NCBI GenBank assembly: GCA_019873685.1 | Contig: JAIOAT010000007.1 | Coordinates: forward strand, 66,281-128,660 | Direction: 5' to 3' | Length of the DNA: 62,380 nt | From: Chloroflexota bacterium | GTDB taxonomy: Bacteria; Chloroflexota; Anaerolineae; Aggregatilineales; Ch27 | In this document: positions 38,746 to 54,823 of the stretch, in pieces | Layout of the letters: the number at the start of each line of letters is the position of its first letter | Position numbering within the stretch: the stretch's first letter is position 1 | Position numbers and translations under genes: made by a program | Notes under the pieces: generated by a model | Databases searched by the model: none | The model's input: only the letters and a program-made list of their open reading frames with translations | What the model was told of the DNA's origin: nothing

Positions 38746-38758
38746 TGGCCGGGCGTTG

Positions 38759-40339
38759 CTAGGAAAGCACCTCGTACACAGTCACCGGCTGCTGACGCCC
38801 CTTGACCTGCATCACCCCCAGCGAACGCGCCCGGATCGTATCGCCCAGCGCGATCAGCACGCGGTCAGTGATCAGAATCTGCCCCGGCGCGGCGTTCTCC
38901 TGCAGACGCTTGGCGACGTTGACGGCGTCGCCGATGGCGGTGTAATTCATGGCACGGGCAGCGCCGATATTGCCGACCACCGCTTCCCCGGTATGCACGC
39001 CGATGCCAAAGGTCAGGCCAGCCCGTCCCTGGCGGTTATTCCAGGCGGTCACAGCATCGCGCAGGGCAACCGCTGCATCCACCGCCCGCCGGACATGATC
39101 CGCCTGCGGTTGCGGCGCGTTGAAGAAAGCCATCACGCCATCGCCCAGGAACTTGTCCAGCGTCCCCTCGCGGGCCATGATGACATCCGTCGCAATCTGG
39201 AAGTAGGTGTTCAGCAGTTCTACCACCTGCTCCGGCTGGGCACGCTCACTGAAGGCAGTGTAGCCGCGAATGTCGGCGAACATGATCGAGATCGGCTGAC
39301 GCTGGCCGCCCAGCTGCAACGCTTCCGGGCGCTCCAGCACGCGATCCACCACCGAGGGCGCGACATACCGCTCGAACATCTGGCGGATCTGCCGCTTTTC
39401 GCGCTCTTTCGCGGCCTGCAGCTGGCTGAAGTTGTTGGCGTTCTCGATGGCGATCGCGGCGTAGTCAGCCAGGGCGCTGAGCAACCCCTGATCGTGACCG
39501 GTGAAAACCCTTCCGCGCTCGTTAACACTGTTGACTCCCAGCGCGCCCAGTACCCGATCCTTGATGATTAATGGGACCGCCAGCGCCACACAGGGGAACG
39601 CCAGTCGCTTAACCCGCAGCCGCTCCTGTTCCTCTGGCGCCAGTGCCAGCGGACGCCCGGTCTCCACCACCCGCTGCGCCAGAGGATCAACGCCCACCAC
39701 ACACATGGGCTGAGCCTGTTCCTCGCCGGCCCGGCGCGCCGCGCGGCATACCAGTCCCTCCCCTTCCCGCAGAAAGAGCGCCCCCTCCTCCGTCCCGGTC
39801 ACGGTGACCGCTGCGTCCACCACGCGCGGGGCCAGTTGCTCCAGTTCAAGCTGGGCGGCCACATTCTTGCCCATCCGGTAGAGCACATTCAGTTCGCGCA
39901 CGCGCTGCTGCAATTCCCGGTTGGCCGCCAGCACGCGCTGCATCAGGGCTTCTTTTTCATGACGCAGACGGGTTTCGGTCAGGCTGCGTTCGATGGCCGC
40001 CAGCATCTCGTCAATCGTATACGGCTTCTTGACGTAATCCTTGACGCCCAGCCGGAAGACCTCAACGGCGATCTCCTCTGAGCCGTGAAAGGTCATCAGG
40101 ATTACGGGGATGTTGGCCTGGGCCTCCGCCAGCGCCTTGAGGACGGCCACGCCATCCATATAAGGCATTTGCAGGTCGAGCAGAATCAGGTCCGGGCGCT
40201 CGTTCAGAGCTTTGCTCAGTCCCTCACGGCCATCGCGGGCCACGCTAACCCGGAAGCCATTGGGCTTGAGGACATAATCCACAACGAATTCACGGTTCTC
40301 CCGGCCATCATCCACGACCAGGACATGCTCACCGGCCAC
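38759..40339 (-). CDS. receiver-GAF-adenylyl cyclase
   Basis: Protein of 526 residues. The receiver domain (1-120) has VLVVDDG, ILLDLQMPYMDG phosphoacceptor Asp and KDYVKKPY. A coiled linker, a GAF domain (about 160-310), and a class III nucleotide cyclase (about 340-526) follow. Cyclase metal aspartates are visible in FADIRGYTAFSER and GDGVMAFF. The LDKFLGDG lysine indicates ATP rather than GTP, and IGDAVNVAKRL carries the transition-state Asn/Arg. It therefore likely makes cAMP when phosphorylated by a kinase such as those at 41.8-45.4 kb. The start is GTG 40339, with AGAGAGGG five bases upstream. Confidence 0.93.
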   Translation of the reverse strand: MAGEHVLVVDDGRENREFVVDYVLKPNGFRVSVARDGREGLSKALNERPDLILLDLQMPYMDGVAVLKALAEAQANIPVILMTFHGSEEIAVEVFRLGVKDYVKKPYTIDEMLAAIERSLTETRLRHEKEALMQRVLAANRELQQRVRELNVLYRMGKNVAAQLELEQLAPRVVDAAVTVTGTEEGALFLREGEGLVCRAARRAGEEQAQPMCVVGVDPLAQRVVETGRPLALAPEEQERLRVKRLAFPCVALAVPLIIKDRVLGALGVNSVNERGRVFTGHDQGLLSALADYAAIAIENANNFSQLQAAKEREKRQIRQMFERYVAPSVVDRVLERPEALQLGGQRQPISIMFADIRGYTAFSERAQPEQVVELLNTYFQIATDVIMAREGTLDKFLGDGVMAFFNAPQPQADHVRRAVDAAVALRDAVTAWNNRQGRAGLTFGIGVHTGEAVVGNIGAARAMNYTAIGDAVNVAKRLQENAAPGQILITDRVLIALGDTIRARSLGVMQVKGRQQPVTVYEVLS

Positions 40340-40375
40340 GCGATCCCTCTCTGCTTGCTGTCGTCATGCGGGGCC

Positions 40376-40381
40376 AGTATA
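40376..40381 (-). promoter_or_regulatory. -10 element for the cyclase gene
   Basis: TATACT on the minus strand, 37 bp upstream of the GTG start. A good -35 is not evident. The region 40385-40600 upstream contains no supported gene. Confidence 0.35.
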
Positions 40382-40604
40382 GCCCACAACCGCGCCGCTC
40401 ACCATATTCACGCGCAAACGCACGCAGGCGAGACCTTTTTCGATTAATGGAGCGATAAACAAACGCCAGAAAGCCAGGAGACCTGGAGGCCGCCGGTTGC
40501 TCATGGCAACTACATTCTGCCTCCAGAGCAAGGCAGAAGCCAGGACATCCCCCGCAGTGACGCCCGCGCCGTGTAAGAATCGGAGTAAATCGGTAAATTG
40601 AGAA

Positions 40605-40633
40605 TTGCCCTCTCCCCGCCGCGCCTCTATAAT
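40605..40633 (+). promoter_or_regulatory. sigma70-type promoter upstream of the YgiT-type zinc-finger gene
   Basis: TTGCCC (40605-40610), 17-bp spacer, TATAAT (40628-40633). Start near 40640, giving a leader of about 120 nt that contains a short reading frame and a perfect palindrome. Confidence 0.6.
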
Positions 40634-40646
40634 CAGGAGCAGTGTC

Positions 40647-40697
40647 ATGAGAAGCGCCGCTGGCGATGCGAGTCCGGCGGTTGCTGCGGCGGGTTAA
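40647..40697 (+). CDS. candidate 16-codon leader peptide
   Basis: ATG 40647 has AGGAGC six bases upstream and opens a 16-codon frame (MRSAAGDASPAVAAAG) ending in TAA at the centre of the palindrome at 40688-40703. It sits in the leader of the zinc-finger gene. No regulatory amino-acid run is obvious, so a translational leader role is only a suggestion. Confidence 0.3.
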   Translation: MRSAAGDASPAVAAAG

Positions 40698-40703
40698 CCC
40701 GCC
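40688..40703. repeat. perfect 16-bp palindrome in the zinc-finger gene leader
   Basis: GGCGGGTTAACCCGCC, eight-base arms without a spacer, about 50 bp after the predicted transcription start. It could be a dimeric operator or the base of an RNA hairpin. There is no T-run, so it is not a terminator. Confidence 0.55.
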
Positions 40704-40758
40704 TGACTCCAACAGCGTTTGGCGTCCCGCTGCGTTGAGGATGCCCCTGGAGAACCTG

Positions 40759-41031
40759 ATGCCCCACAACGAGAATGACCTGTGTCCGGTCTGTCATGTA
40801 GGCCGCCTGCGCCTGCGTCCGGTCACCTATACCCAGGTCTACTATGGCCTGCTGGTCAGCGTGCCCAACACGCCGGCCTGGGTCTGTGACGTGTGCCACA
40901 CGGTTGAGCACGATCGCCAGTCGGTACAACGGATCGAGGCGCTCATGGAACACGCCGGGCCGCCGCACCGACGGGCCGACAGGCGGCCAGCGGAACGGGC
41001 CAGAACACGCCTCTACCCTACTGACTCCTGA
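40759..41031 (+). CDS. YgiT-type zinc-finger protein
   Basis: Small protein of 90 residues with two CxxC pairs (DLCPVCHVGRL and WVCDVCH) and the YgiT signature between them (VTYTQVYYGLLVSVPNTPAW). This zinc domain forms the N-terminus of MqsA antitoxins; here the helix-turn-helix half is missing and a basic, disordered tail follows. Similar stand-alone proteins often neighbour a small toxin-like gene of the DUF4258 type, but none is visible here. The start is ATG 40759 with CTGGAG eight bases upstream; the earlier ATG 40741 lacks spacing. It is followed by 143 bp without a gene before ppa. Confidence 0.78.
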   Translation: MPHNENDLCPVCHVGRLRLRPVTYTQVYYGLLVSVPNTPAWVCDVCHTVEHDRQSVQRIEALMEHAGPPHRRADRRPAERARTRLYPTDS

Positions 41032-41174
41032 GCCGCAACTACCCGGCGCGCTCACTCGACCCCGGCCCGGCTGGCAGCAGTGAAGATCGGCTATGCTGGC
41101 CGGGCCGGAGAACCGCCATCACCGAAGTCATGACACTCCACACCGCCGCAACACAAGTTTGATGAGACTGCACT

Positions 41175-41723
41175 ATGACCATCAATCTCTGGCACGGCCT
41201 GCCGCCCGGCCCCAAAGTCCCCGATATCGTGTACTGCATCGTGGAAATCCCCAAAGGCAGCCGCAACAAGTACGAATACAGCAAGACAGCCGGCGTGATC
41301 AAGCTGGACCGCGTGCTCTATAGCCCGCTGCATTACCCCAGCGACTACGGCCTGATCCCGCGCACCTTCTACCCGGATGGCGACCCGCTGGACATCATGG
41401 TCATGATCAACGAACCCACCTACCCCGGCTGTGTGATCGAGGCGCGGCCTATCGGCATGTTCCGGATGATCGACCGCGACATGCCTGACGACAAGATTCT
41501 GGCCGTCCCTGCCACTGATCCTATCTTCGACGATTATCACGATCTCGCTGATGTCCCCCGCCATTTCCTGGCGGAAGTCGCTCACTTCTTTGCCACGTAC
41601 AAGCAGCTTGAAGCCGATGGCAACATCCAGCCGATTGGCTGGATCGGCGCTGCCGAAGCCAAAGAGCACATCCTGCAGGCCGTCCGGCTGTACGAAGAGA
41701 AGTATCCGCTGGCTGGCGTCTAG
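41175..41723 (+). CDS. ppa: inorganic pyrophosphatase
   Basis: Family I soluble pyrophosphatase of 182 residues: PPi plus water gives two phosphates, pulling biosynthetic reactions forward. Signatures: VEIPKGSRNKYEY with the substrate Lys/Arg, YPSDYGLIPRTFYPDGDPLDIMV (the DxDPxD metal site) and DDKILAVPATDP. The C-terminal helix FFATYKQLEADG is typical. The start is ATG 41175 (MTINLWHGL). No strong promoter is seen immediately upstream. Confidence 0.95.
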   Translation: MTINLWHGLPPGPKVPDIVYCIVEIPKGSRNKYEYSKTAGVIKLDRVLYSPLHYPSDYGLIPRTFYPDGDPLDIMVMINEPTYPGCVIEARPIGMFRMIDRDMPDDKILAVPATDPIFDDYHDLADVPRHFLAEVAHFFATYKQLEADGNIQPIGWIGAAEAKEHILQAVRLYEEKYPLAGV

Positions 41724-41817
41724 GGGCCGTTGCTACTATGCTTATAAGCGCGGGGATGCGGACGACGCTCCTTGCGCGTCTTTGGCTTGGAAGTCCAGCG
41801 CAATGTGAACAGGCTGC

Positions 41818-43071
41818 ATGACCACGCCCGAACTGCTCTCCCCCGACCTGCTGGAGCTGCTGGGGCGTATCATTGCCCGTGCGCGGGCCGCCCTGTCCTT
41901 CGATTACGGCGGCATTGCTCTGAGCGCTGCTGCGGAGGAGACGTTGACGCTCCACCTGGCATATCCTGCTCCGGCCACCTATCCCATCCAGGCGGGCTTG
42001 TTGCGTCGGGCGGCAGTGCAGCGCCAGCCGATCCTGTTGCCAGACATTCAGCCTGGCTCGCCCGACTGGGCGTTCCGGCCAGCACTGCGTGCAGCGCTGC
42101 TGATCCCGCTGGCGCTGGAAGGGCAGCTGTCGGGCGTGCTTCTGTTCGGCAGCGACACCCCGGGAGCTTACGACGCCGAAGACCTGCGCCTGGCCACCGC
42201 CCTGGCAGACCAGGCGGCGCTGGCGCTGGATACCGCCTTACGTGCAACTGCTGCCCGGAGCATCGCGGCGGAAAACGTCACCCTGATCGCAGCCCTTGAG
42301 CAGCATGCCGCCGAATTACGCGAAGCCAACCGTCTCAAGAGCGAGTTCCTGGCTAATATCAGCCATGAGCTACGCACCCCGATGAACGCCATCATCGGCT
42401 TCTCCGAGACGCTGCTGAGCGGACTTTACGGGGAATTGAACGCCACCGCCGCCGACCGGGTGGAGCGCATCCTGCGCAACGGGCGCGGTCTGCTGGCCCT
42501 CATCGATGACTTGCTGGATCTTTCCAGGATCGACGCCGGCAAGCTGCAACTGGCGCCGGAGCCGCTGGCACTGGAGGAAACGATCAAACCAGCGGTCGAG
42601 GCGGTGAAAACGCGACTCGCCAGCAAGAGGCTGAGCATCGCCGTTAGTGTGCCCGCTGACCTGCCCCCCGTCGAAGCGGACCCGACCCGCCTGCGCCAGG
42701 TGCTGGATAATCTGCTGGACAACGCGATCAAATTCACCCACTACGGCGGGATCACCATCTGCGCCGGGGTTGAGGAGGGCGTTGAGCCAGCCAGAGTCTG
42801 GTGCAGCGTGACCGATACAGGGATCGGGATAGCGCCGGAGAATCAGGGGATCATCTTTGACGAATTCCGCCAGGTTGACGGCACCTCGACCCGCCAGTAC
42901 GAGGGCACAGGGCTGGGATTGGCGATCTCCAGGAGGCTGTTGAGCCTGATGAACGGTCACATTGCGGTGGAAAGCAGCCCTGGCCAGGGCAGCACCTTCA
43001 CCTTCTGGCTGCCAGTCGCCCGGTTGAAGCCGCCTGAGTCCTACAGCATCCAGAGCACGGGGGGCCTATGA
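41818..43071 (+). CDS. GAF-domain sensor histidine kinase
   Basis: Soluble kinase of 417 residues. N-terminal GAF domain (about 10-145: LSFDYGGIALSA ... SGVLLFGS), phosphoacceptor helix ANISHELRTPMNAIIGFSETL near residue 180, and HATPase with DNAIKFTHYGG, DTGIGIAPENQGIIFDEF and GTGLGLAIS. Its catalytic half is very like that of the next gene (both have LLSGLYGELN or LLQGLYGDLN after the His box), so the two are recent relatives. The stop overlaps the next ATG (ATGA, 43068-43071). No membrane helix; the signal is probably small-molecule or protein. Confidence 0.92.
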   Translation: MTTPELLSPDLLELLGRIIARARAALSFDYGGIALSAAAEETLTLHLAYPAPATYPIQAGLLRRAAVQRQPILLPDIQPGSPDWAFRPALRAALLIPLALEGQLSGVLLFGSDTPGAYDAEDLRLATALADQAALALDTALRATAARSIAAENVTLIAALEQHAAELREANRLKSEFLANISHELRTPMNAIIGFSETLLSGLYGELNATAADRVERILRNGRGLLALIDDLLDLSRIDAGKLQLAPEPLALEETIKPAVEAVKTRLASKRLSIAVSVPADLPPVEADPTRLRQVLDNLLDNAIKFTHYGGITICAGVEEGVEPARVWCSVTDTGIGIAPENQGIIFDEFRQVDGTSTRQYEGTGLGLAISRRLLSLMNGHIAVESSPGQGSTFTFWLPVARLKPPESYSIQSTGGL

Positions 43072-45434
43072 ACCAGGTCATCCTTGAGGACTTCATCACC
43101 ATCGCTGCGAGCATCCTGAGTCTGAGCGTTGCCATCGGGTTGATGCTTGGCATGGTACTCCAGCCACACCGGGAATCCGCCAACGGCTGGTTTGCCCTCT
43201 TTCTGGGCAGCCTGGCCCTGTGGGGCGGCGCGGCACTGTTGCTGACGCTGCCCGGCCTCGCTCACCGTCTGGACCTCACCACCGTCTTCTATCTCTATCT
43301 GGTTGGTCTGGGCCTGATCCCCGTCACCTTCTACTTCGCTGCGGTGGCCTTCTGCGGGATCAGGACGCTGCTTACACGGGCGGTCGCCCTGATCACGCCG
43401 GTGCTCCTGGTGGTGTTCCTGATCCTGCTGTGGAGCAATCGCCTGTTCATCCTGGAAGTCACTACCGCCGCCGAGTCGATCGCGTTCAGCGCCCTGGTGG
43501 ATTCGGTGCATATTACGCCAGCCGGGACCGCGGCGATTGTGCTGAGCGCGGGCTACCTGCTACTGGCGCTGGCCCTGATCTGGCGACGCCGGGGAGAACG
43601 GAGCCGCCTGCTGCGCATCCCGGCGCTACTGCTGAGCATTGGCAGCCTGGGCAATCTGGTCGGCCCGCTCAGCCGCACACCCTTTGACGCCATCCTGACC
43701 ACCCTGGCTGCCGGCTTGATCGGCTACGTCCTGATCCGCGTGCAGGTCTTTGACCCACTGACCACGATGAACCGCCAGCTTAGCGACGCCAATCAGGAAC
43801 TACGCTCCCTGATCAAAGACCTGGCCGCTGAGAAGGAACGGGCCGACGCCCTCAACGCAGAGTTGCGTACGGTCAGCCAGTACAAGTCCGAATTCCTGGC
43901 AACGATGAGCCATGAACTGCGCACGCCACTGAACTCCATTGTCGGCTACAGCGAACTATTGCTACAGGGCCTCTACGGGGATCTTAACGAGCGCCAGAGC
44001 GACCGCGTGGAAAAGATCCTGCGCAACGGACAGGCGTTGCTGGCGCTGATCAATAACATCCTCGACCTGAGCAAGATCGAAGCGGGCCGGATGGATTTCA
44101 CCTTTCAGCATGTCGCGCTTTCTGACGTGGTGGAAAATGTAGCCCCTGAGTTCACTGCTGCCGCCACAGCGAAAGGCTTGCAGCTGGAGATCAGCGTAGC
44201 GCCTGACCTGTACGCCGTTTATGGAGACGCCCAGCGCATCCAGCAGATCCTGCATAACCTGCTCAGCAACGCGGTCAAATTCACCCCGCAGGGTAGCGTC
44301 CGCCTGGAAGTCTTCAACGCCCAGGTCAAGAACGGCTACAGCCGGGCGCTGACGCTGCCCGCGCCGGGCTGGCTCAAAGACGGCAACTGGGTGATCCTCC
44401 GCGTCACTGATACCGGCATCGGCATCGCCCCGAAAGATCACGAGCGCATCTTCGATGAATTCCGCCAGCTGGACAGTTCCGCCACCCGTGAGTTTGGCGG
44501 CACAGGATTGGGCCTGGCCATTACCAGGAAGCTCGTCGCTCTCCACAGCGGCGCGATCTGGCTGACCAGTGCGCCGGGCCAGGGTAGCACGTTCTACGTA
44601 GCCCTGCCCGCCAGCAGCCGCGCTATCAGCGAGACCAGGCCACAACCCGAGGCCGGGCCAGCACGAGAACAACCGCACATCCTGGTCATCGACGATAACC
44701 AGGATGCGCTGGACATCCTGACCACCTTCCTCACCGAGGCCGGTTACCGTGTTACCCAGGCCAGCAGTGGGGCGGCGGGGCTGGAGCTGGCCCGGCAGCT
44801 ACAGCCGGACGTGATCACCACCGACCTGATGATGCCCGGTATCACCGGCTGGGAACTGATCGAGCAACTCAAGGCCGACCCGGCCACGGCAGCCATCCCG
44901 ATTGTCACGGTTAGCATCGTCGACAGCCAGCCGCTGGGCTTGTGGCCGGCGGTTGACGCGCACATCAGCAAGCCCATCGAGCGCGAGGCGCTGCTGGAAG
45001 CCGTCGCCCGCCTGCTGACGGGGCAGCCAGGCGACCGGCCCATCCTGATCGTGGACGATGATCCTTCGGCCCGGCAACTGGTGGCCGATGTGCTCAGTTC
45101 AGCCGGTCACGCCAGCGTGACGGTTGACAGCGGCCAGGCGGCCATGGACTGGCTGGCTCATAACCGGGCCAGCGCGGTTGTGCTTGACCTGTTGATGCCG
45201 GATATCAACGGTTTCCAGGTGCTGGAGTATATCCGCCAGCAGGAATACCTGGCTGACCTGCCGGTGCTTGTCGTCACCGCCAAGACCCTGACCGTCCAGG
45301 AACGTCTCTTCCTGCAGCAGCACCTGGCGACGCTGGTTCGCAAGCAGGGGCTGCAACGCAGCGATCTGCTGGCCCTGATCGAGCAGGCGTTAGGCGGCGC
45401 ATCTGACGGCAGGCCAGCAGGCACGATACAATAA
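43068..45434 (+). CDS. seven-helix hybrid histidine kinase with two receivers
   Basis: Hybrid kinase of 788 residues. Seven hydrophobic helices (about 10-225) form a 7TM-type sensor. A short coiled coil (LIKDLAAEKERADALNAEL), the His box ATMSHELRTPLNSIVGYSELL near residue 285 and an HATPase (NAVKFTPQGS, DTGIGIAPKDH, GTGLGLAITR) follow. Two receiver domains come after: ILVIDDNQDAL ... ITTDLMMPGITGW and ILIVDDDPSARQL ... VVLDLLMPDINGF, both with intact phosphoacceptor Asp. It is co-translated with the preceding kinase and followed by a single receiver protein, making a phosphorelay-like cluster. Confidence 0.93.
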   Translation: MNQVILEDFITIAASILSLSVAIGLMLGMVLQPHRESANGWFALFLGSLALWGGAALLLTLPGLAHRLDLTTVFYLYLVGLGLIPVTFYFAAVAFCGIRTLLTRAVALITPVLLVVFLILLWSNRLFILEVTTAAESIAFSALVDSVHITPAGTAAIVLSAGYLLLALALIWRRRGERSRLLRIPALLLSIGSLGNLVGPLSRTPFDAILTTLAAGLIGYVLIRVQVFDPLTTMNRQLSDANQELRSLIKDLAAEKERADALNAELRTVSQYKSEFLATMSHELRTPLNSIVGYSELLLQGLYGDLNERQSDRVEKILRNGQALLALINNILDLSKIEAGRMDFTFQHVALSDVVENVAPEFTAAATAKGLQLEISVAPDLYAVYGDAQRIQQILHNLLSNAVKFTPQGSVRLEVFNAQVKNGYSRALTLPAPGWLKDGNWVILRVTDTGIGIAPKDHERIFDEFRQLDSSATREFGGTGLGLAITRKLVALHSGAIWLTSAPGQGSTFYVALPASSRAISETRPQPEAGPAREQPHILVIDDNQDALDILTTFLTEAGYRVTQASSGAAGLELARQLQPDVITTDLMMPGITGWELIEQLKADPATAAIPIVTVSIVDSQPLGLWPAVDAHISKPIEREALLEAVARLLTGQPGDRPILIVDDDPSARQLVADVLSSAGHASVTVDSGQAAMDWLAHNRASAVVLDLLMPDINGFQVLEYIRQQEYLADLPVLVVTAKTLTVQERLFLQQHLATLVRKQGLQRSDLLALIEQALGGASDGRPAGTIQ

Positions 45435-45451
45435 ACGGTACACGGTGCAGC

Positions 45452-45480
45452 TTGCAGGCTGCCCGCCGTACGATAATAAT
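45452..45480 (+). promoter_or_regulatory. candidate promoter of the single-receiver gene
   Basis: TTGCAG (45452-45457), 17-bp spacer, AATAAT (45475-45480), or TAATAA with 16 bp. It lies in the 129-bp gap after the hybrid kinase gene. Confidence 0.45.
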
Positions 45481-45563
45481 GATGCTTGGGTAACGGTTAG
45501 TCGCGGGGATCACCGCCCGACCGGGGGCAAGATGACCGTGATTCGATCAAGGAGTGGGCCTGT

Positions 45564-45938
45564 ATGGGCAGTCGTCGTGTCCTGATCGTTGAGGACAATT
45601 CCGATAGCCGCACCCTGCTCACCGACATCCTGTCCACGCTGGATTGCACCGTCCTGGCTGCCAGGGACGGCGCTCAGGGCATCGCCCTTGCCGCCAGCGA
45701 GAAGCCAGACCTGATCCTGATGGACCTCTCCCTGCCGCAGGTGGATGGCTGGACAGCGACCAGCCGCATCAAAGCAGATGAGCGCCTGCGGCACATCCCC
45801 ATCATTGCGCTGACCGCCCACGCGATGGTCGGTGACCGGGAGAAAGCCCTGGCCGCCGGTTGCGACGATTACATCTCCAAGCCCATCGACCTGCGCGAAC
45901 TGCAGCAAAAACTGACCAAGTACCTCGGCCAGCCGTGA
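45564..45938 (+). CDS. single-domain response regulator
   Basis: Stand-alone receiver of 124 residues, DivK/Spo0F-like. It has VLIVEDNSDS (acidic pair), LILMDLSLPQVDG (phosphoacceptor Asp near residue 54), IIALTAHAM (Thr switch) and DDYISKPID (conserved Lys). No output domain, so it probably shuttles phosphate between the upstream hybrid kinase and another protein. AAGGAG lies nine bases upstream of the ATG. Confidence 0.92.
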   Translation: MGSRRVLIVEDNSDSRTLLTDILSTLDCTVLAARDGAQGIALAASEKPDLILMDLSLPQVDGWTATSRIKADERLRHIPIIALTAHAMVGDREKALAAGCDDYISKPIDLRELQQKLTKYLGQP

Positions 45939-45991
45939 GAGCCGTTCGCCGGCGCCCGGCAATGGCCAGCGCAGGGCGCCAGAAATCAACC

Positions 45992-46020
45992 TTGACCGGG
46001 CCTGACCGGCATGGTACACT
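45992..46020 (+). promoter_or_regulatory. promoter of tRNA-Glu
   Basis: TTGACC (45992-45997), 17-bp spacer, TACACT (46015-46020). Start near 46027, seven bases before the mature tRNA 5' end. Confidence 0.7.
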
Positions 46021-46033
46021 AACGCCCGTCAAC

Positions 46034-46106
46034 GCCCCCATCGTCTAGAGGCCCAGGACGTGGCCCTTTCAAGGCTAAGACAGGAGTTCGAATCTCCTTG
46101 GGGGCA
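46034..46106 (+). tRNA. tRNA-Glu (anticodon TTC)
   Basis: 73-nt cloverleaf. Acceptor GCCCCCA pairs with TGGGGGC, with discriminator A46106. The D-arm region GTCTAGAGGCCCAGGAC is typical of bacterial tRNA-Glu. The anticodon stem TGGCC/GGCTA contains one G-T pair around loop CTTTCAA, giving anticodon TTC. The T-arm is AGGAG-TTCGAAT-CTCCT. CCA is not encoded. A strong promoter precedes it and an intrinsic terminator follows eight bases later, so it is a monocistronic tRNA transcript. Confidence 0.95.
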
Positions 46107-46114
46107 CAGAGCAA

Positions 46115-46147
46115 CCATGCCCGCTTAAGCAGCGGGCATGGTTTTTT
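46115..46147 (+). terminator. intrinsic terminator of tRNA-Glu
   Basis: Perfect 10-bp stem CCATGCCCGC / GCGGGCATGG with a seven-base loop followed by TTTTTT. Confidence 0.9.
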
Positions 46148-46179
46148 GTTGCCTGGTTGTCACACACCCTGACGCGATC

Positions 46180-46371
46180 CTACGTCACTGCCGCAGGATC
46201 ATCCTCCAGCCCTTCGAGCGGGAACCGCCGCAGCTTGAGGAGTTGCAGGATCACCAGCGCCACGAACAGCGGGTTGTTGACCAGGTAGCGCTTCCACAGG
46301 CGGCGCGGCTCCGTGAGCAGGCGGAAAAGCCACTCCAGGCCGCTGCGCTGCATCCAGCGCGGAGCCTGCCT
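46180..46371 (-). pseudogene. 3' remnant of a second wecG/tagA-type glycosyltransferase gene
   Basis: Leftward frame of 63 codons with no start of its own; an in-frame TAA lies immediately upstream (46372-46374). It reads [36 protein letters not shown] and so on to a normal TAG. This is the C-terminal signature of the WecG/TagA/CpsF family. It matches the end of the intact neighbour (46380-47186) at about two thirds of residues over 46 positions. It is GC-rich, unlike the intact gene, so it is most simply the tail of the original resident gene, left when the AT-richer copy replaced it. Confidence 0.8.
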
Positions 46372-46379
46372 TTAGAGTA

Positions 46380-47186
46380 CTAGCCGTAACGTAGTTCACG
46401 GACAGGGAACGCCCCGCTGGGAATCTCGCGTGTGTACAAACGTGTTAGCTGCAGAAGAAGAAGAAAAAGAAACAAAGGATTGAGAAGCAGGTAGCGGCGC
46501 CACAGACGTCGGGGTTCTACGACAAGTCGAAACAACCACTCAAGTCCAAACTTTTGTAGTAGTGAAGGCGCTTGTGGAACTGTTCCCGCGTGGAAGTCAA
46601 ATGCGGCCCCGACAGCGATTATTGGAATAGAGAGATAATCGGAATACTCGTAGACCCAGACTTCCTGCCTTGGACAGCCAAGACCAACCAGGACGATTCT
46701 GGCCCCACTATCACGAATGGTCTCGATTATTTCCGCCTTCTCTTCAGTGGTTGTCTGGCGGAACAACGACGGTCTTGCTCCAGCAATTTTCAAGTGCGGA
46801 AACCGCTCCGTTAGGTTCTTGATCAGTCTCTGCAATACAACGTGCTTGCTACCATACAAGTAGATGGGCAGTCCTTCCTCTGCCGCCTTTTCGCAAACGC
46901 GCAGAGTCAGGATCGGCCCGTATACCCTATCAGGCAAATGGGTATTGTACAGAAGATTAAGCGACCACCTAACCGGCTGACCATCAGGAACGATAAGCTC
47001 AAAACTATTGAGACGACGTTGATGTTCTTTGTCAAGCACTCCTGTCATCACACCATGAACAGCCAAAGCGGAGACTGCCATCCTCTGTTTGGCATGGGCT
47101 GCAGAAATGATCTTTGCCACAGCACTGTCATAGTCAACTGCATCTACTCCAATCCCAAGCAAGTTCTTCTTACCTTTGTCAATCAT
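46380..47186 (-). CDS. WecG/TagA/CpsF-family glycosyltransferase
   Basis: GT26-family sugar transferase of 268 residues acting at the cytoplasmic membrane face on undecaprenyl-linked acceptors. Cues: [16 protein letters not shown], a [14 protein letters not shown] motif with the conserved Asp, [37 protein letters not shown], and the C-terminal [20 protein letters not shown]. The start is ATG 47186, overlapping the epimerase stop (ATGA); an earlier GTG is not needed. The gene is visibly AT-richer than its surroundings and is followed by the tail of a GC-rich homologue. Sugar specificity (ManNAc or other) cannot be read. Confidence 0.9.
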
Positions 47187-48259
47187 CTCTTGAGCTCCAA
47201 CCAACGCTCCACATTACACTGGTAGATTTCTTCGAGGATACGTTGAACATCGTATTTCTGCTGCCAATTAGGGTAATGAGACCGAAACTTACTTAGGTCG
47301 CTAATATACCAAATGTGATCACCTACCCGATTTCGATCGGTATACACTGTTTTCATCTTTTTTCCAGTGATCTGCTCACACATGCTAATGGCTTCCATCA
47401 TCGAGCAATTGCTGAAGCGTCCACCTCCAATGTTGTAGACCTCAGCAATGCGAGGTGCCTTGTAGAATTCATACATCGCATTGATGAGATCTGAACTGTG
47501 GATGTTGTCCCGCACTTGTTTTCCCTTGTACCCGAAAACAGTATATTCAGTATCTGTGACCGCACACTTCATCAGGTAGGCCAGAAAGCCATGGAGTTGT
47601 GCTCCGGAGTGGTTGGGGCCTGTCAGGCAGCCACCGCGCAGGCAGACTGTATACATTCCAAAGTACCGGCCATATTCCTGCACCATGATGTCAGCGGCAA
47701 CTTTCGAGGCACCAAACACACTATGCAGTGAAGCATCAATCGACATGTCCTCTGGAATGCCGTTACTATATGGATGTTCAGGAATGATCTCCCAGCGAGT
47801 CGGAAGTTCCTCCAGGGGCAGCCTATTGGGCGTATCGCCATATACCTTGTTAGTAGATGTGAAGATAAAAACGGCATTAGGGCAGTATTGCCTGGTCAAC
47901 TCCAGCAAGTTCAGCGTTCCGGTTGCGTTGATCCCAAAGTCCGTCAATGGTTCCTTGGCCGCCCAATCATGTGAAGGCTGAGCCGCAGTGTGCACTATCA
48001 GGCTGATATCCTTGCCGTAGTGGCGGAATTGTTTTTCCAAGGCATCATAATCTCGTATGTCGATTGACTCATGATGGTAACTTTTTCCCAGACGCTGTTC
48101 TAGAAGCTGCGCACGCCATGTTGTAGATGCCTCGTTACCAAAGAAGTAACTGCGCATGTCATTGTCTATACCGACAACTTCTAGACCAAGTTGCGCAAAG
48201 AACTCAGCAGCCTCTGAACCAATCAGACCAGCAGACCCTGTGATAATGGCGACGGACAT
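47183..48259 (-). CDS. NAD-dependent epimerase/dehydratase, CDP-tyvelose epimerase-like
   Basis: Extended short-chain dehydrogenase of 358 residues. The NAD site is [17 protein letters not shown] with IDNDM, the Ser/Thr strand is [10 protein letters not shown], then [16 protein letters not shown] and [13 protein letters not shown]. The STNKVYGD and GKQVRD strings and the [21 protein letters not shown] helix are those of the CDP-paratose 2-epimerase (RfbE/Tyv) branch. The catalytic Tyr of YxxxK is Phe here (FGASK), so the acid/base step must differ or use another residue. ATG 48259 has TTGGAGGG five bases upstream. It probably makes a nucleotide sugar for this locus. Confidence 0.86.
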
Positions 48260-48274
48260 ATTCCCTCCAAGGAA

Positions 48275-48322
48275 TTCAGACTTTATGTCTGAAATATATA
48301 ACCAAGACAGCTACCTGCAAAG
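48275..48322 (-). promoter_or_regulatory. candidate promoter and palindromic site of the epimerase-wecG pair
   Basis: Read leftward: TTTGCA (48317-48322), then TATATA (16 bp) or TATATT (18 bp; 48293-48298). The perfect inverted repeat TTCAGAC-ATAAA-GTCTGAA (48275-48293) overlaps the expected transcription start and precedes the ribosome site. It could be an operator or a leader hairpin. Confidence 0.45.
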
Positions 48323-48384
48323 GAAAATTATCATAATATTGTAGTGATACAAATGACACTCTAATATTCCAAAATCTACTCACA

Positions 48385-49569
48385 TCATGAACAAGCTTTC
48401 GCCCGCGCGATCGCCGTGCGGTAGATCGCCATCAGCATCTCGTAGTTGCGCTCCGGGGTGTACTTGGCCTCGTATTCGGCCCGCGCGTTCCTGCCCATCG
48501 CCGCCATCTCCTCCGGATGCTCCCACGCCCAGGCCACCTTCGCCGCCAGGTCCGCCGCATCCCCCGGCGTGAAGTGCAACCCCGTCCGGCCATCGGCCAC
48601 GATCTCCGCCAGCGCCCCCAGCCGCGATGCGATCACCGGCGTCCCACACGCGAAGGCTTCTACAACAACCATTGGAAAACTCTCATACCATGTCGAAGGC
48701 ACCACGACAAAACGGGCCTGCCGGAGCAGGTTGAGCACCGCCGCATGCGGTTGCTGCCCAAGCAGCGTGACAGTCCCCTGCCGGGGAGGCGTCATCTGCG
48801 CCGCCAGCGTAGCCCGAAGCGGGCCATCCCCGGCAATCTTCAGCGGCACATTCAGCTTCTCCCAGGCAGCGGCAAGAACATCCAGCCCCTTTTCCACGGA
48901 GAGCCGCCCCACGAACAGCGCAAACGGTTCGCGGCCCAGACCTTCGCCCGGATCTGGCTGAAAATTCGGCTTGACGGCGATCTTCTCCGCCGGCAGCCCG
49001 CCCTGGATGAACTTCTGGCGGGCGAACTCGGTCAGGGCAATGTAGCAGTCCACCTGCTCCTGCCATGTCCTGCGCCAGCGATGGAAGGTGAGCATGGCCG
49101 CCATCCCCGCTGTCTGCAGGCGCGAGCCGCGGTAGCAGCCATAGCGCACGCCGGGCCAGGGCGGAGTCCGGCCCAGGCACAGCTCGCAAACGGCCCCACC
49201 ACGCAGGAAGAGCGCGTTCGGGCACAGCAGCCGGTAATTGTGTAGCGTCTGCACGACCGGCACGCCCGCTTCCCGGCAGGCATAATAGGCGGCGGGCGAG
49301 ATCATGAAGTGCGTGTTGTGGAAGTGCGCCACGTCCGGCTTCTCGCGGGCGATGAGCTGCCGCAGCGCCCGCACGCTATCCCCTGCCCAGACCCAGCGCG
49401 CCGGAAGCGTCAGCCTGCCCCACGCGCCAAGCGCCCGCACCTCGTCATTGGAGCGGGTGTAGGTGATAACGTGGTGGCCCGCCTCCCGCAGCAGGGCGCC
49501 CTCCGCGGAAAAAACCGCGTCCTCACCGCCGGGCTGCTGATAGTGGTTATGGATGAGAAGGATGTTCAT
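48385..49569 (-). CDS. GT4-family glycosyltransferase
   Basis: GT-B glycosyltransferase of 394 residues. The N-terminal half has ILLIHNHYQQPGGEDAVFSAE (acceptor-side loop common to this GT4 subgroup), HFHNTHFMISPAAYYACRE and a Cys-rich insert (CELCLGRTPPWPGVRYGCYR). The donor half has FALFVGRLSVEKGLDVL, LKIAGDGPL and the E-x7-E site ESFPMVVVEAFACGTPVIAS. The gene is GC-rich from end to end, in contrast to the AT-rich genes on both sides. The start is ATG 49569 (MNILLIHNH), one base after the upstream stop; in-frame codons before it lie within the upstream gene. The product would extend the repeat unit on the lipid carrier. Confidence 0.92.
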   Translation of the reverse strand: MNILLIHNHYQQPGGEDAVFSAEGALLREAGHHVITYTRSNDEVRALGAWGRLTLPARWVWAGDSVRALRQLIAREKPDVAHFHNTHFMISPAAYYACREAGVPVVQTLHNYRLLCPNALFLRGGAVCELCLGRTPPWPGVRYGCYRGSRLQTAGMAAMLTFHRWRRTWQEQVDCYIALTEFARQKFIQGGLPAEKIAVKPNFQPDPGEGLGREPFALFVGRLSVEKGLDVLAAAWEKLNVPLKIAGDGPLRATLAAQMTPPRQGTVTLLGQQPHAAVLNLLRQARFVVVPSTWYESFPMVVVEAFACGTPVIASRLGALAEIVADGRTGLHFTPGDAADLAAKVAWAWEHPEEMAAMGRNARAEYEAKYTPERNYEMLMAIYRTAIARAKACS

Positions 49570-49570
49570 C

Positions 49571-51016
49571 TCAACAAACTTCTTCAGGAACCTGAATACC
49601 TCTTCTGAGAAGTGTCGCAAAGCCCAAGATCAATAACGAGTCAAGTGCAGGGTGCCAGACAAACATCCCGGCGGTGAACATAGAACGTATGAGCAATACA
49701 GTGAACACGGCAGTAGCTTCTGTTCTCAGTGACTGGCACAGATTGGAAGTGGGCTTACTCTTCCACAGAATCCATACAGTTCTGGCGATTCCAACCAATA
49801 GCGGAGTAGCACCTAGCATGCCACCTCCTAGAAGTGCCTCCACAAATGCGTTGTCAGCCCCGGAAATCAGTCCACCAACATAAACGTTTTCGGGCTTAGC
49901 CATCCGTAACATGAACCTAGTGGCAGCGTAAGCACCATAACCCAAGAGCGGCCGATCTGTGATAAGGCTCCAGCTCACATTCCACAGATAAACACGCCCG
50001 GTGAGCGTGGCAAACTGCCGGTCTGATTGCCCACGCCTGAAATAGGCCCAAAGAACATCGCCCAGATTAGTTACTGTAAGCAAAAGGAATAACGCGATTG
50101 TGAGGAATCCCAAGATACCAAGGCGACGGGAGAGCACAAGTAAGAGCAGCGTCGCGAGCAAGAAAGCAACAATCGGTGATCGACTTTGGGCAAAAACCAG
50201 TGTAACCATACTAACTGCGAAGACAAAGAGATAGGTTCGTTCAGTCCTATAGCGTGTTAGCATCCGACTTACTGAAACCACCCCCAGTGTTGCTCCCAAC
50301 TGTCCTACGACATTTGCATCAACCAGTGGGATGAACCCATGTATCTGGACACCGAGCAAACCAACAGCAGTAATTGTTTGACTAGGCCAGACAATTACCT
50401 GAATCCACACTGAGACCATAAGTGTGCCATACAGCGTCCAGACTAGGTCAAAGAAGGTCTTGTACTCGTGCGCACTTCTGACCGAGGCTAAGATGCTTGC
50501 TAGCAGGGCAACATCAACTAGATACTCCACCGATTTATAGAGCGTCCAAAACGGCTGAACAGACCACAAGGTAGAGAAAACACCAACGATTCCGAAGCCA
50601 GTGAACCAAACCACCGGATCCGCGAAAAGGTATTGCAGCCAGTTTGTTTGCCCGCTGATTAATCTTGTTATCAGTACAAAGGCTACGATAGCCACAAGAC
50701 CAGCACGATAGATGGTCCAAATGTCGAGCAGGTTGTTCTCTATCGTCTCAATGTCGCGTACGCGAAAGATTAATGCGCTGAGGAATAATAGGACACAACA
50801 AACGTGCCACCAGCGAATCTGACTCAAGAGATGACGAAGTTTACGCCACAATTCCGGGATTACGACGATGCTGGACACTACCACAGTGCTGCCCGCCAAC
50901 CCAGCTAGGAGTCTTGTAGCGCTGGAATCCAGAGCGCCAATGAAGAATCCAGCCAGGCTGGACATCAGAGCTACTGCTATGAAGATGCTTACCGTCTTCT
51001 CAGATCTGATTGTCAT
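49571..51016 (-). CDS. O-antigen ligase/polymerase-like membrane protein
   Basis: Integral membrane protein of 481 residues with about eleven to twelve hydrophobic helices. The large outside loop carries the Wzy_C/O-antigen-ligase pattern: LTGRVYLWNVSWSLITDRPL, LGYGAYAATRF and DNAFVEALLGGGMLG. Such proteins polymerise or transfer undecaprenyl-linked glycan outside the membrane. With the flippase nearby this is a Wzx/Wzy-type pathway. AT-richer than the genome; no clear ribosome site before ATG 51016. In a monoderm host, ligation to a protein or teichoic acid is as likely as repeat polymerisation. Confidence 0.83.
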   Translation of the reverse strand: MTIRSEKTVSIFIAVALMSSLAGFFIGALDSSATRLLAGLAGSTVVVSSIVVIPELWRKLRHLLSQIRWWHVCCVLLFLSALIFRVRDIETIENNLLDIWTIYRAGLVAIVAFVLITRLISGQTNWLQYLFADPVVWFTGFGIVGVFSTLWSVQPFWTLYKSVEYLVDVALLASILASVRSAHEYKTFFDLVWTLYGTLMVSVWIQVIVWPSQTITAVGLLGVQIHGFIPLVDANVVGQLGATLGVVSVSRMLTRYRTERTYLFVFAVSMVTLVFAQSRSPIVAFLLATLLLLVLSRRLGILGFLTIALFLLLTVTNLGDVLWAYFRRGQSDRQFATLTGRVYLWNVSWSLITDRPLLGYGAYAATRFMLRMAKPENVYVGGLISGADNAFVEALLGGGMLGATPLLVGIARTVWILWKSKPTSNLCQSLRTEATAVFTVLLIRSMFTAGMFVWHPALDSLLILGFATLLRRGIQVPEEVC

Positions 51017-51045
51017 TGGCCAACAAAACCCTTGCGTATGTCACG

Positions 51046-51190
51046 TCAACTCCCCTTTTCATCCCACGTAAAGTGCTCCTGAACCCCCCGCCGCCCTGCC
51101 GCGCCCAGATCCCACGCCGCCTGTTCGAGCGATAGCCGCCACCCGCGGCGTCGGCCCGCCCAGATCGTAGTGATCAGTTCCGGCCGACTG
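51046..51190 (-). pseudogene. stub of a GC-rich glycosyltransferase gene (C-terminal end)
   Basis: Leftward GC-rich stretch whose frame reads WRLSLEQAAWDLGAAG then RRGVQEHFTWDEKGS and a stop. The last helix (x-R-R-x-V-x-E-x-F-T-W-D/E) is the usual end of GT4-type glycosyltransferases, which normally continue about fifteen residues further. Both flanks are AT-richer, and the upstream end overlaps the 3' end of the kinase gene in another frame. It looks like a resident-gene fragment stranded between two imported pieces. The right boundary is approximate. Confidence 0.5.
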
Positions 51191-52259
51191 CCTTCGAACA
51201 CATATTTATCCTGCGAAGGAACATCTCCATGTTCGTACTGGCCAACCGTCTTTCAAACAGCTGCTCATAAAATCTCCTCAGTATCCACTGCAAAAGCGGC
51301 TGTTTCGTGGTCCTATCCGCAATTCGGGGCAAGAACCAGTGATAGATCCAGGCGCTGGCAAGAACCTCGATGACAATCTTGAGTTCCTTCTGTGGATTGT
51401 ACCCCGACCAAAAGGCTTCTTCCCATTTCCACACAACTTCGCACGGGATCAATGGATTGAATAGCTTAGCTCGCAAGTTGGAGACCAGGACGACCGGGTC
51501 GTGAACCACGGTGCGTATAGCTGTATGTTCAAAATCAACGATAGCAGGCTGGTTGGTGTCTTCGCACCAAAGAATATTGGGCAAAGAGAGATCACCATGA
51601 CTAAGTGTTGTGGGGAGCAATATTCTCTCTCTACCCAGAGCCTCAATGCCCTGCGTCACAATCTGTAGAGCGAATTGGTAGAAAGGCCTTAGTGCGACAT
51701 GCACATCCCTCTGTTGTGCAAGAATATTCCGCACGTGAGCGAGATCAAGGAATGTTTGTTCGACCTCATGCGCTTTCTGCGAGTCCTTTAGCCATGCACC
51801 CACTCTCCAAAGAGCACTAATGCCGATCTCTCCCGTACGATCTGCCCCAATTGCACGTTTGATGATCTGCGCTAACGGCCTGCTGTTACTTAGGGCTTGC
51901 CAGATCATAGTCCGATTGATTTCTGAGCATGCAAGTTGCCTGGGCATAAGAACAAGGGCATTAGGCTGCTGGAGACGACTTGCGACTACCCACTCAGCCC
52001 GAATTTGATCTTTCGCTGACCTCATCCTATCTGAGTAGTCCGAGCAAGAGGCTTCAGGCACAAGCACAGGTGCCAGATATGGAAATTCGTCAGCCAAGAG
52101 GAGCTTGGCAAAAAACATCTTCCCATTAGCCCTGCCAATACAATGGAGACTCGAACCGCTGGTGCTCGTACCAATATGGGAGAGATTCACCTCCCCTACA
52201 GGGATACCCAATGTATCAGCTATTCGGCATAGTATTGTTCCGCGATCTAGCACATTCAT
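51174..52259 (-). CDS. APH-like (aminoglycoside/sugar phosphotransferase fold) protein
   Basis: Protein-kinase-fold phosphotransferase of 361 residues. The catalytic loop is LSHGDLSLPNILW and the metal strand AIVDFEHTAI, matching the HGDxxxxN...DxE/D pattern of APH/choline-kinase-type enzymes. The N-lobe contains a lysine in KMFFAKLLL. In a glycan locus it may phosphorylate a sugar or a glycan end, or modify an aglycone; the substrate is unknown. AT-richer. It starts nine bases after the methyltransferase stop with no obvious ribosome site, so translational coupling is likely. Confidence 0.78.
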   Translation of the reverse strand: MNVLDRGTILCRIADTLGIPVGEVNLSHIGTSTSGSSLHCIGRANGKMFFAKLLLADEFPYLAPVLVPEASCSDYSDRMRSAKDQIRAEWVVASRLQQPNALVLMPRQLACSEINRTMIWQALSNSRPLAQIIKRAIGADRTGEIGISALWRVGAWLKDSQKAHEVEQTFLDLAHVRNILAQQRDVHVALRPFYQFALQIVTQGIEALGRERILLPTTLSHGDLSLPNILWCEDTNQPAIVDFEHTAIRTVVHDPVVLVSNLRAKLFNPLIPCEVVWKWEEAFWSGYNPQKELKIVIEVLASAWIYHWFLPRIADRTTKQPLLQWILRRFYEQLFERRLASTNMEMFLRRINMCSKAVGRN

Positions 52260-52268
52260 GATCAGTCG

Positions 52269-53153
52269 TTAAGACAGTGGTTTTCTACTGACCAGCAGAA
52301 AAGACCCCGCACCTAGGCCGAGTAATCCTAACAACGCAAGCAAGCGATAGTAGTTCTTGCGAATAGCAGGCATTCTGGAAGCCTCGCTTGCTTGAAGCGC
52401 TGCGGTTGACAGTTGGCTGGTCGACTTCATCATCTCTTTGTCCAGGCACACGGACTGCCAAGGACCAAGCAGTACCCTAGGATACTGATAGGTGAATAGA
52501 GGGACATACACTTGAGGCAACTCAAATCCAGCGTCAGATAGCAGCCTTCGCCATCCCCAATAGCTGTAGACAAACCCTCGATAGCGGTAACCCCACAACC
52601 TCGTTGACACAAAATCTGCCCAGCGACGAGGCAAGACGTTCACCAAGGGCTTGTTGAGTTGGGCATCTCTCCAAAGGTATCGAGGAAATAGCCGATTCTT
52701 GGTGCCAACAATCAGATATCCCCCCGGTCGCAACACACGGAAGACCTCTTTCAGCGCATCGACTTGAAGTGCTTGAACAGGCTTCTCGTAACTAGTGAAA
52801 CCGATCCACTCAATAACTCCGATCATCAATGCTGTATCGGCAATGTCACCTTCAAGAGGAATTTTAAGCGCAGAACACTGTAGCGGAACAACTTGCCCAG
52901 GTGATGCCTCCCCCGCAAGAACTCGACCCCGAACGACCTCAATATTTGCGGAGTCTTTGTCTATTGCATACACTGTCTTACCAGTCTGCGCAAACGCAAA
53001 CGAGAGACCGCCGTACCCGCAACCGACATCGAGTATTACTGCACCGAGGTCTATTGCCAGTTCACCCAATCGATCTAGAAGGAGCTTTCCTCGTTCACTC
53101 CCTTCTGTCAATGGGTCAGTCTGCGAATAGTCACGTAGTTGTTTCGGTTCCAC
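52269..53153 (-). CDS. SAM-dependent methyltransferase with C-terminal membrane helix
   Basis: Class I methyltransferase of 294 residues. Motif I ILDVGCGYGGLSFAFAQ, acidic strand end VYAIDKDSANI, post-I LQCSALKIPLE, motif III VLRPGGYLIVGTKN. The segment after about 160 (RYLWRDAQLNKPL ... WGWRRLLSDAGFELPQVY) is typical of methyltransferases in polysaccharide loci. The last 30 residues contain one hydrophobic helix (LLALLGLLGLGAGSFLLV) that would tether it to the inner membrane face, where lipid-linked glycan is built. The start is GTG 53153 with GGAG seven bases upstream. AT-richer composition. Confidence 0.85.
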   Translation of the reverse strand: MEPKQLRDYSQTDPLTEGSERGKLLLDRLGELAIDLGAVILDVGCGYGGLSFAFAQTGKTVYAIDKDSANIEVVRGRVLAGEASPGQVVPLQCSALKIPLEGDIADTALMIGVIEWIGFTSYEKPVQALQVDALKEVFRVLRPGGYLIVGTKNRLFPRYLWRDAQLNKPLVNVLPRRWADFVSTRLWGYRYRGFVYSYWGWRRLLSDAGFELPQVYVPLFTYQYPRVLLGPWQSVCLDKEMMKSTSQLSTAALQASEASRMPAIRKNYYRLLALLGLLGLGAGSFLLVSRKPLS

Positions 53154-53194
53154 AAACAGACTCCATTCCTTATGCTAGAAGTCAGCTTCAGCAG

Positions 53195-54499
53195 TCAAGC
53201 CACATCTGATTTGTACTTAGGTCTGTCAATATAGAAAATAATCATAGTTAATCCTGTTATAATAGCTGTAAGGGTCTGGCTCAAGATTGCACCAAGCAGT
53301 CCAATTAACACGATCAGTGCAACCCCAATAGTCAGCGAAAACAAGCTAGAAACAAGATAGCTACGAAAAATCAGATCAGGACGCTCCAAGGCTCTAAGTG
53401 CGCCCCCCATGATGACATACGCACTTGAGGCGAGAGGAATAAAGCCTACTACAACCAGTAGATCTGCATAGGCGTCATACCGTCCTTTATATAGCCAGTG
53501 CAGCAATTCTGTGTGCACCACCGCAAGTAAAAGGCCATATACAAGAGCGAGGCTGAATAGTAAGGAGACTGATTTGAGAACAACGTTGTCGAGCTTTGAC
53601 TTCCCATGAGTCCTAAGAATTCTGACATATTCAGGAACCAGAACCAGGGTTACTGCTGAGATCGTGAGCAAGACAGGCATTATGAAATTCTGCATGGCCT
53701 TGAGCGCGGCACTACCCTGAAAGCCGATCCATGCCGGGACAAGGATGTAGTTGATGTTACCCGGCAGCCACATCAGCCCGGCGGTGGCCGTTGACCAGCG
53801 GCCGTACGTCCAGTGGTCGCGCAGCATCTCCCGCCACGCCACGCCGCCCCACTGCGGGCGCAGGATGGTGGTATACAGGGCGCAGGTCAGCAGCGCAGCG
53901 GCGCCCATCACGACGAAGGCTGCCAGCGACGACAGCGCTCCCAGCTGGTTCACGCCAGCTAAGCCGACCAGCATGACCGCCAGGTAGATCGCCCCACCGG
54001 CGGCTGCCCACTGCGGCCGGGCAACAATGTAGAACACCTGCCGCAACAGCCAGAGCAGCATGATAAACGGCGCGGCCAGGGCCAGCCCCAGCAGCGCCAA
54101 CCCCAGCGCCCCCGATCCAAAGCGCAGCACGAGCGCCCCGCCCAGCAGCAGGATGGCGCTGGCCGCCAGGCTGATCACCGCGTGGCTGGTGTAGCCGAAG
54201 GCCAGGTAGCGGCGGAAGTGCGACGCATACTTGCCGGAGCCGAAGACCATCATCGGCTCGGCCAGCATCGCACTGTGGAAGGTGTTCAGCAGCAGGAAGA
54301 GCGAATAGGCGGTGGCGAACGCCCCGTATTCCTCCGGGGGCATCCATCGTGCCAGCACAACATTGGCCAGGAAGTTGGTGGCCGCGAACAGCCCGCGATC
54401 GGCTACCGCAAACCCGCCCTTTTGCAGCCAGGGCCACCAGCGCGCCAGCGCCTGGCGGATAGAGCGTCTCTCAGCGATCGGCACGGTTTTCACGTCCAT
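53195..54499 (-). CDS. Wzx-type polysaccharide flippase, compositionally chimeric
   Basis: MATE/PST-superfamily flippase of about 434 residues with some twelve hydrophobic helices, opening with the family cue GLFAATNFLANVVLARWMPPEEYGAF. It would flip undecaprenyl-linked repeat units. Codons for about residues 1-248 are GC-rich like the genome, while those from about residue 250 on (from near 53750 leftward) are visibly AT-richer, so the gene is a recombinant of two alleles. The frame is intact across the junction. The start is ATG 54499; a GTG three codons upstream is an alternative, and neither has a good ribosome site. First gene of the leftward locus. Confidence 0.87.
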   Translation of the reverse strand: MDVKTVPIAERRSIRQALARWWPWLQKGGFAVADRGLFAATNFLANVVLARWMPPEEYGAFATAYSLFLLLNTFHSAMLAEPMMVFGSGKYASHFRRYLAFGYTSHAVISLAASAILLLGGALVLRFGSGALGLALLGLALAAPFIMLLWLLRQVFYIVARPQWAAAGGAIYLAVMLVGLAGVNQLGALSSLAAFVVMGAAALLTCALYTTILRPQWGGVAWREMLRDHWTYGRWSTATAGLMWLPGNINYILVPAWIGFQGSAALKAMQNFIMPVLLTISAVTLVLVPEYVRILRTHGKSKLDNVVLKSVSLLFSLALVYGLLLAVVHTELLHWLYKGRYDAYADLLVVVGFIPLASSAYVIMGGALRALERPDLIFRSYLVSSLFSLTIGVALIVLIGLLGAILSQTLTAIITGLTMIIFYIDRPKYKSDVA

Positions 54500-54739
54500 C
54501 GTCGGCACACACTACAGAGCGCCCCACCCCACAGCAGCGGACGCTTCCTGGTCTCACATCGCGCTTCAGAACTTGCGGCTTCAGCTTGTAGCGGCTCGAC
54601 AGTCGGGGTCTTCGGATCAGGCGACCTTTCAGCGGAGTGATAACAGCCACAATGAACCCGGTCGCTACAGCGACGCGCACACGCCGCACCGCAGCATCAC
54701 CGGGGGTCACCTGAATGGCTATCGATTGCTACCCTCGCT

Positions 54740-54768
54740 AACATACCACCTTACCCGGACTTACGCAA
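54740..54768 (-). promoter_or_regulatory. candidate promoter of the polysaccharide operon
   Basis: Read leftward: TTGCGT (54763-54768), 17-bp spacer, TATGTT (54740-54745). The -35 overlaps a perfect palindrome GCAATGCATTGC (54765-54776). The transcript would have a leader of roughly 230 nt before the flippase gene (54500-54733), in which I see no supported gene. Confidence 0.45.
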
Positions 54769-54823
54769 TGCATTGCCCGGGCAGATTCCCACCCTCTTTC
54801 GCGCCCGCGAGCACCGACAAGCA

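Follow-up and report, generated by a model that had tools for sequence, protein, structure and literature searches.

A C-terminal wecG tail next to tRNA-Glu is very probably the scar of a resident gene replaced by lower-GC DNA

Introduction

Resident operon genes can be replaced in place by foreign genes of the same family, a process called in situ gene displacement that is known from mosaic operons. Foreign DNA can also be joined by homology at one end and illegitimately at the other, as described for homology-facilitated illegitimate recombination (PMC3240628). Our literature searches for gene remnants at the edges of polysaccharide loci found no report on the point.

Here we analyze a stretch of 62,380 nucleotides from a Chloroflexota bacterium (contig JAIOAT010000007.1), referred to below as the window. 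Near one end of a polysaccharide island in it, an intact wecG gene is directly followed by a short frame that resembles the end of another wecG. We conclude that this frame, hereafter the relic, is very probably the dead scar of a resident wecG that was overwritten by foreign, lower-GC DNA.

Results

The relic is a lone C-terminal appendage of the WecG family

The features around the relic are as follows, in window positions.

46034 to 46107, plus strand: tRNA-Glu (TTC), called by ARAGORN, convergent with the wecG genes
46180 to 46371, minus strand: the relic, 63 terminal codons of a GC-rich type A wecG that encode the C-terminal appendage alone (PF03808 positions 140-168)
46369 to 46380, no strand: junction between incoming DNA and old gene (breakpoint interval, placed by the start of similarity, the end of the open reading frame and the GC switch)
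46380 to 47204, minus strand: intact type B wecG, 274 aa, complete (PF03808, E 3.9e-57)
47183 to 48259, minus strand: NAD-dependent epimerase/dehydratase gene, overlapping wecG (PF01370, E 3e-36)

The relic matches positions 140-168 of the Pfam profile PF03808 (Glyco_tran_WecG) with an E value of 1.5e-10 and 41.6 bits. This score exceeds the curated cut-off of 27.4 and places the origin of the relic in the WecG/TagA/CpsF family. TIGR00696 also finds it (E 2.7e-9), at 37 bits, below the whole-protein cut-off of 69, as expected for a fragment. The intact neighbor passes both the Pfam and the TIGR00696 cut-offs, whereas the relic consists of the C-terminal appendage alone. Because the catalytic core is absent from the matched positions, it does not qualify as a working enzyme of the family.

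The relic frame opens right after a TAA and has no start codon at its 5′ end. The initial annotation had described exactly such a start-less frame of 63 codons, to which we add an in-frame ATG at codon 7 that would allow a 57-aa open reading frame. All 63 codons are free of stops and frameshifts, and their reading frame is not that of the intact wecG. Over 46 aa the relic is 65% identical to the adjacent WecG, in line with the two-thirds identity noted at the outset, and its last 16 residues do not align. The compositional contrast described there is also present: GC and GC3 are 0.67 and 0.88 in the relic, near the level of nine backbone genes in the window (GC3 0.79-0.85), whereas the intact gene has 0.51 and 0.47 in its last 64 codons and 0.50 and 0.49 over its whole length.

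Where the relic begins relative to the protein architecture is of some interest. Its second residue aligns to residue 211 of the intact WecG, so that its start corresponds to about residue 210-211, and the crystallized TagA, of 195 residues, reaches only to the counterpart of residue 207. The relic thus starts close to the point where the catalytic core gives way to the C-terminal appendage, which is suggestive of a living peptide. The TagA appendage is described as required for activity and as tethering the enzyme to the membrane (PMC6493773). A literature search found no paper combining TagA, 'C-terminal appendage' and WecG. For a lone appendage without a core, a transferase role is not expected.

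The relic and its neighbor belong to two types of wecG

We searched for the relic in 61 genomes (its own, one of the same genus, three of the same family and the rest of the same order) and obtained matches in 52. By tblastn, it finds wecG C-termini in relatives at identities of up to 75-77%; four plasmid records match it in DNA sequence at 77-80%, and in three of these the matched region is annotated as WecB/TagA/CpsF. We then built a tree from the intact WecG of the window and 24 further WecG proteins (from 22 stretches of these genomes and two named-collection loci), leaving out the relic itself. Two clades emerge, both supported at 100/100: type B, with 11 rows including the intact gene of the window, and type A, with 14.

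The ten best matches of the relic are all type A, with identities reaching 76.9% (52 aa) and 75% (56 aa); types A and B mix from rank 11, and the intact neighbor ranks only 20th of 25. The type A genes of G007, G020, G045 and G054 share 71-77% amino acid identity with the relic. These ranks argue that the relic is not a copy of its neighbor and, together with the PF03808 match, uphold the original proposal that a second, different wecG left it behind the intact one. No second tail was found beside an intact wecG in any of the 24 loci of the relatives. One frame (G056:C40; L123 4285-5045) carries a wecG core and its C-terminal appendage in different frames, with the break near the core/appendage border and a sequencing error as a possible cause. 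We rejected it as a second lone short frame, as it holds wecG parts in two frames and no lone tail. In G026, a short-frame match is situated at a contig end.

The intact WecG is 61-63% identical to six same-order WecGs over 267-269 aa and ends in RYG, as do most type B relatives. Its matches among phage sequences are distant, all below 60% identity. An epimerase gene similar to the one in the window directly precedes type B wecG in three of ten relatives: an Alphaproteobacteria MAG (L058), an Acidobacteriota MAG (L059) and a member of the same order (L072). In five others (L060-L064) no epimerase was found nearby, in L074 a wbaP gene separates the epimerase from wecG, and in L065 the contig starts inside wecG. 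From these gene orders, the epimerase-wecG(B) pair is a module that occurs in distant taxa, though not the rule. Type A wecG adjoins wbaP in 6 of its 14 loci.

The old gene was joined non-homologously and its 5′ part is gone

The relic starts to resemble type A genes at 46368-46371, and the open reading frame of the intact wecG ends at 46380. Over 31 codons across this point, GC3 rises from 0.48 to 0.94. The boundary, first placed near 46372-46380, can thus be set at about 46369-46380 by the composition switch. A homologous swap inside wecG would yield one mixed gene, which argues that the join was non-homologous. Similarly, the presence of a complete new gene with only an internal part of its predecessor behind it speaks against a clean homologous swap, as had been argued from the start. 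The bases 3′ of the type B stops in ten relatives, compared with the window by eye, share nothing with it.

In the window, tblastn for the 5′ part of the old gene with the WecG proteins of 24 relatives turned up nothing convincing: among the better matches outside wecG, stretches at 31-40% identity lie near 21.0-21.2 kb (E 4e-4 to 0.2). A 51-residue match (E 0.004) at the 3′ end of a wbaP-like gene was discounted, as the open reading frame of one relative had been extended upstream into its wbaP. Besides the intact wecG and the relic, PF03808 finds one more gene in the whole assembly, a fused one on C10, and none of the three is another full copy of the old gene. With no 5′ part in the window and no other full copy, we consider about 200 codons to have been removed, i.e., overwritten. 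The suggestion of an insertion next to the old gene therefore holds for the non-homologous joining but not for "next to". At the junction at 46369-46380, DNA was joined without homology and recipient sequence was lost.

A sister genome retains 19 codons of the old gene

One genome of the same genus (G001) was found. It is colinear with positions 31988-46239 of the window in three long alignments (88-93% identity), which leave a gap at 41.9-42.3 kb. The alignment then jumps from 46239 to 62149 with 5 unmatched bases between, and continues over 62149-62377 at 90.4% DNA identity. This comparison defines three further features.

46180 to 46239, minus strand: part of the relic kept in G001 (last 19 codons and the stop, from the alignment to G001)
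46240 to 62148, no strand: polysaccharide island of 15.9 kb, absent from G001, where its flanks are adjacent
62149 to 62377, minus strand: 3′ end of an ABC-type permease gene, the right flank of the island (97% amino acid identity to G001)

The window contig ends at 62380, within the permease gene, and this 73-residue end is, of the matches listed, the only 97%-identical permease piece in the assembly. In G001, the 19-codon tail sits between the permease stop and tRNA-Glu and agrees with the relic at 48 of 60 bases; the first 44 relic codons are lost. No other type A or B wecG was found in G001; its only PF03808 match is in a 669-residue frame elsewhere, which resembles a 637-residue one in the genome of the window.

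As expected of a pseudogene remnant, a close relative thus has the same gene at this position, in the form of its last 19 codons. The initial annotation had proposed looking for a full GC-rich wecG at this place in relatives; no full copy occurs there in the same family, and the G001 tail is what this comparison yielded. The shared tail indicates that the common ancestor of the two genomes had a type A wecG next to tRNA-Glu. Replacement in one lineage and deletion in the other may have been independent, or the deletion may have followed the replacement.

The island is compositionally mosaic

Two further island genes bear on the extent of the incoming DNA.

48385 to 49620, minus strand: GC-rich GT4-type glycosyltransferase gene between two lower-GC blocks (PF00534, E 5.7e-35, GC 0.66)
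53195 to 54508, minus strand: flippase-like (wzx-like) gene, a name inferred in the absence of any Pfam or NCBIfam match

Low GC returns beyond the glycosyltransferase gene, at about 49.5-53.65 kb. Because the GC-rich gene splits the lower-GC blocks, either the donor was itself mosaic or more than one event took place; the incoming cassette of the initial annotation is not one uniform block. The glycosyltransferase is 54.6% identical to the product of a gene near the type A wecG in G014 (L068).

The wzx-like gene changes composition within its reading frame. GC3 by codon block is 0.80-0.94 for the first 250 codons and then falls to 0.60, 0.48, 0.46 and 0.32. With this break at about codon 250-270, the gene is likely mosaic, and the composition switch makes an in-frame crossover inside it a possible other end of the exchange.

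Several other genes lie in this part of the window. The 436-aa protein encoded at 54880-56190 matches nothing in Pfam or NCBIfam and has, by eye, a secreted-like start; a 453-codon frame overlaps its gene on the other strand. A Wzc-like tyrosine autokinase gene (TIGR01007; 56438-58168) is on the strand opposite to most island genes, and a gene for a DUF4012 protein (59903-61999) adjoins the wbaP-like gene.

tRNA-Glu adjoins the relic

The relic stop lies 72 bases from the end of the tRNA-Glu(TTC) gene. The assembly has two similar tRNAs, each of them Glu(CTC), and tRNA-Glu(TTC) is apparently the sole one of its kind there. We considered a tRNA-targeted integrative island, which should carry a duplicated tRNA end at its far side. 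Direct repeats of at least 18 bases involving the tRNA were absent from 45900-62380, where one unrelated 21-base pair was present, and G001 puts the far edge at the permease gene, so that the locus lacks this hallmark of such an island.

A same-family genome (G002:C20; L048 14274-19082) has restriction-modification-like genes on the island side of tRNA-Glu (Eco57I, MmeI-type methylases, ResIII). Three genomes thus have three contents at this tRNA: the island in the window, the permease in G001 and restriction-modification-like genes in G002. A search for a further wecG tail near tRNA-Glu gave best E values of 0.02-0.05 in G002 and chance-level matches in G003 and G005.

Evidence for decay and other explanations for the relic

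To compare constraint, we counted codon differences between the window and G001. Among the 20 common tail codons, 9 differ, 7 of them nonsynonymously and 2 synonymously. In a nearby response regulator gene, 30 of 125 codons differ, with 5 nonsynonymous and 25 synonymous changes (Fisher p 0.0014 versus the tail). For the last 20 codons of intact type A genes, three in-register pairs gave synonymous-to-nonsynonymous counts of 3:3, 3:4 and 3:3; three G020 pairs, being out of register, were excluded from this control. Since intact type A tails are also loose, the comparison supports decay weakly.

The relic might instead be alive, as a free-standing appendage of 57-63 aa that binds the membrane or modulates, complements or pairs with the intact WecG. 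A start almost exactly at the appendage border would suit such a peptide, as would the open frame with its ATG at codon 7. In our reading of the alignment, it also keeps the counterparts of TagA Arg214, Arg221 and Arg224, which the model of the TagA study puts in the active site (PMC6493773). However, G001 has dispensed with the first 44 codons, none of the 24 loci has such a tail beside wecG, no start is conserved, and any stretch resembling a ribosome site looks weak by eye. We regard a living gene as very unlikely; the relic is not the conserved, independent small gene that the initial annotation had named as the outcome contrary to its view. A tandem duplication, with the relic as a degraded copy of the adjacent wecG, would account for the end-to-end arrangement, the shared orientation and the 65% identity, but the relic is nearer to the wecG of other genomes (71-77%) than to its neighbor, its GC3 is 0.88 against 0.47, and its last 16 residues find no partner there. 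A duplication is thus extremely improbable.

Nor do we give much credence to two readings that question the locus as a whole. The assembly has 109 contigs, one of which ends about 230 bases past the island, and an assembler might have fused sequences of two strains at 46372. Yet the join falls at non-matching wecG positions, which offer an assembler no evident common sequence, and G001 independently has the old wecG tail and the permease as its two flanks; an artefact of this kind would be exceedingly unlikely. Alternatively, the G001 state could be original and the whole island a gain in the lineage of the window, given that both flanks are common to the two genomes and only 5 bases apart in G001. 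An empty ancestral site is hardly credible, as G001 already has 19 wecG codons, and an ancestor like it could not have supplied the 44 additional old-gene codons that the window holds; the window therefore does not derive from a G001-like state. We retain the overwriting of a resident type A wecG as the explanation of the relic.

Discussion

The overwriting of the resident gene very probably proceeded as follows. The ancestor of the genus would have had a polysaccharide (Wzx/Wzy-type) island between the ABC-permease gene and tRNA-Glu. The tail common to the two genomes shows that a GC-rich type A wecG was the tRNA-proximal gene of that island. In the lineage of the window, the end of the island would have been replaced by foreign, lower-GC DNA ending in epimerase-wecG(type B). 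One end, as the junction and the missing 5′ part show, was joined without homology within the old wecG, which lost its first ~200 codons and kept the last 63. At the other end there may have been an ordinary crossover, possibly in wzx, where the composition switches mid-gene; if that crossover holds, the whole event would be an exchange that was homologous on one side and illegitimate on the other. As a member of the same family, the new, complete WecG would have assumed the transferase step, and the leftover would remain as spacer sequence towards tRNA-Glu, untranslated or unimportant. G001 would have lost the entire island by deletion, along with most of the old wecG, either later or independently.

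In this history, tRNA-Glu(TTC) may limit the reach of the exchange, with the tail being what lay between, and we suggest that the adjacent tRNA could set such a limit for exchanges of this sort. One breakpoint of a polysaccharide-locus exchange is fixed to about ten bases. Moreover, two sister genomes together reveal where a displaced gene formerly stood, one having replaced the gene and the other having deleted the region.

The proposed wzx and wecG ends would resemble the two joins described for homology-facilitated illegitimate recombination, with the homologous end here suggested by composition alone (PMC3240628). Overall, the relic is a clear but ordinary gene-replacement scar, a well-supported case of a known kind of event that makes a useful example and leaves the general view unchanged. 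The replacement in place is the same as in in situ gene displacement, with the difference that here the old tail persists, and a shorter stretch of it also survives in a sister genome. As a result, the former place of the resident gene is directly visible at this locus rather than inferred.
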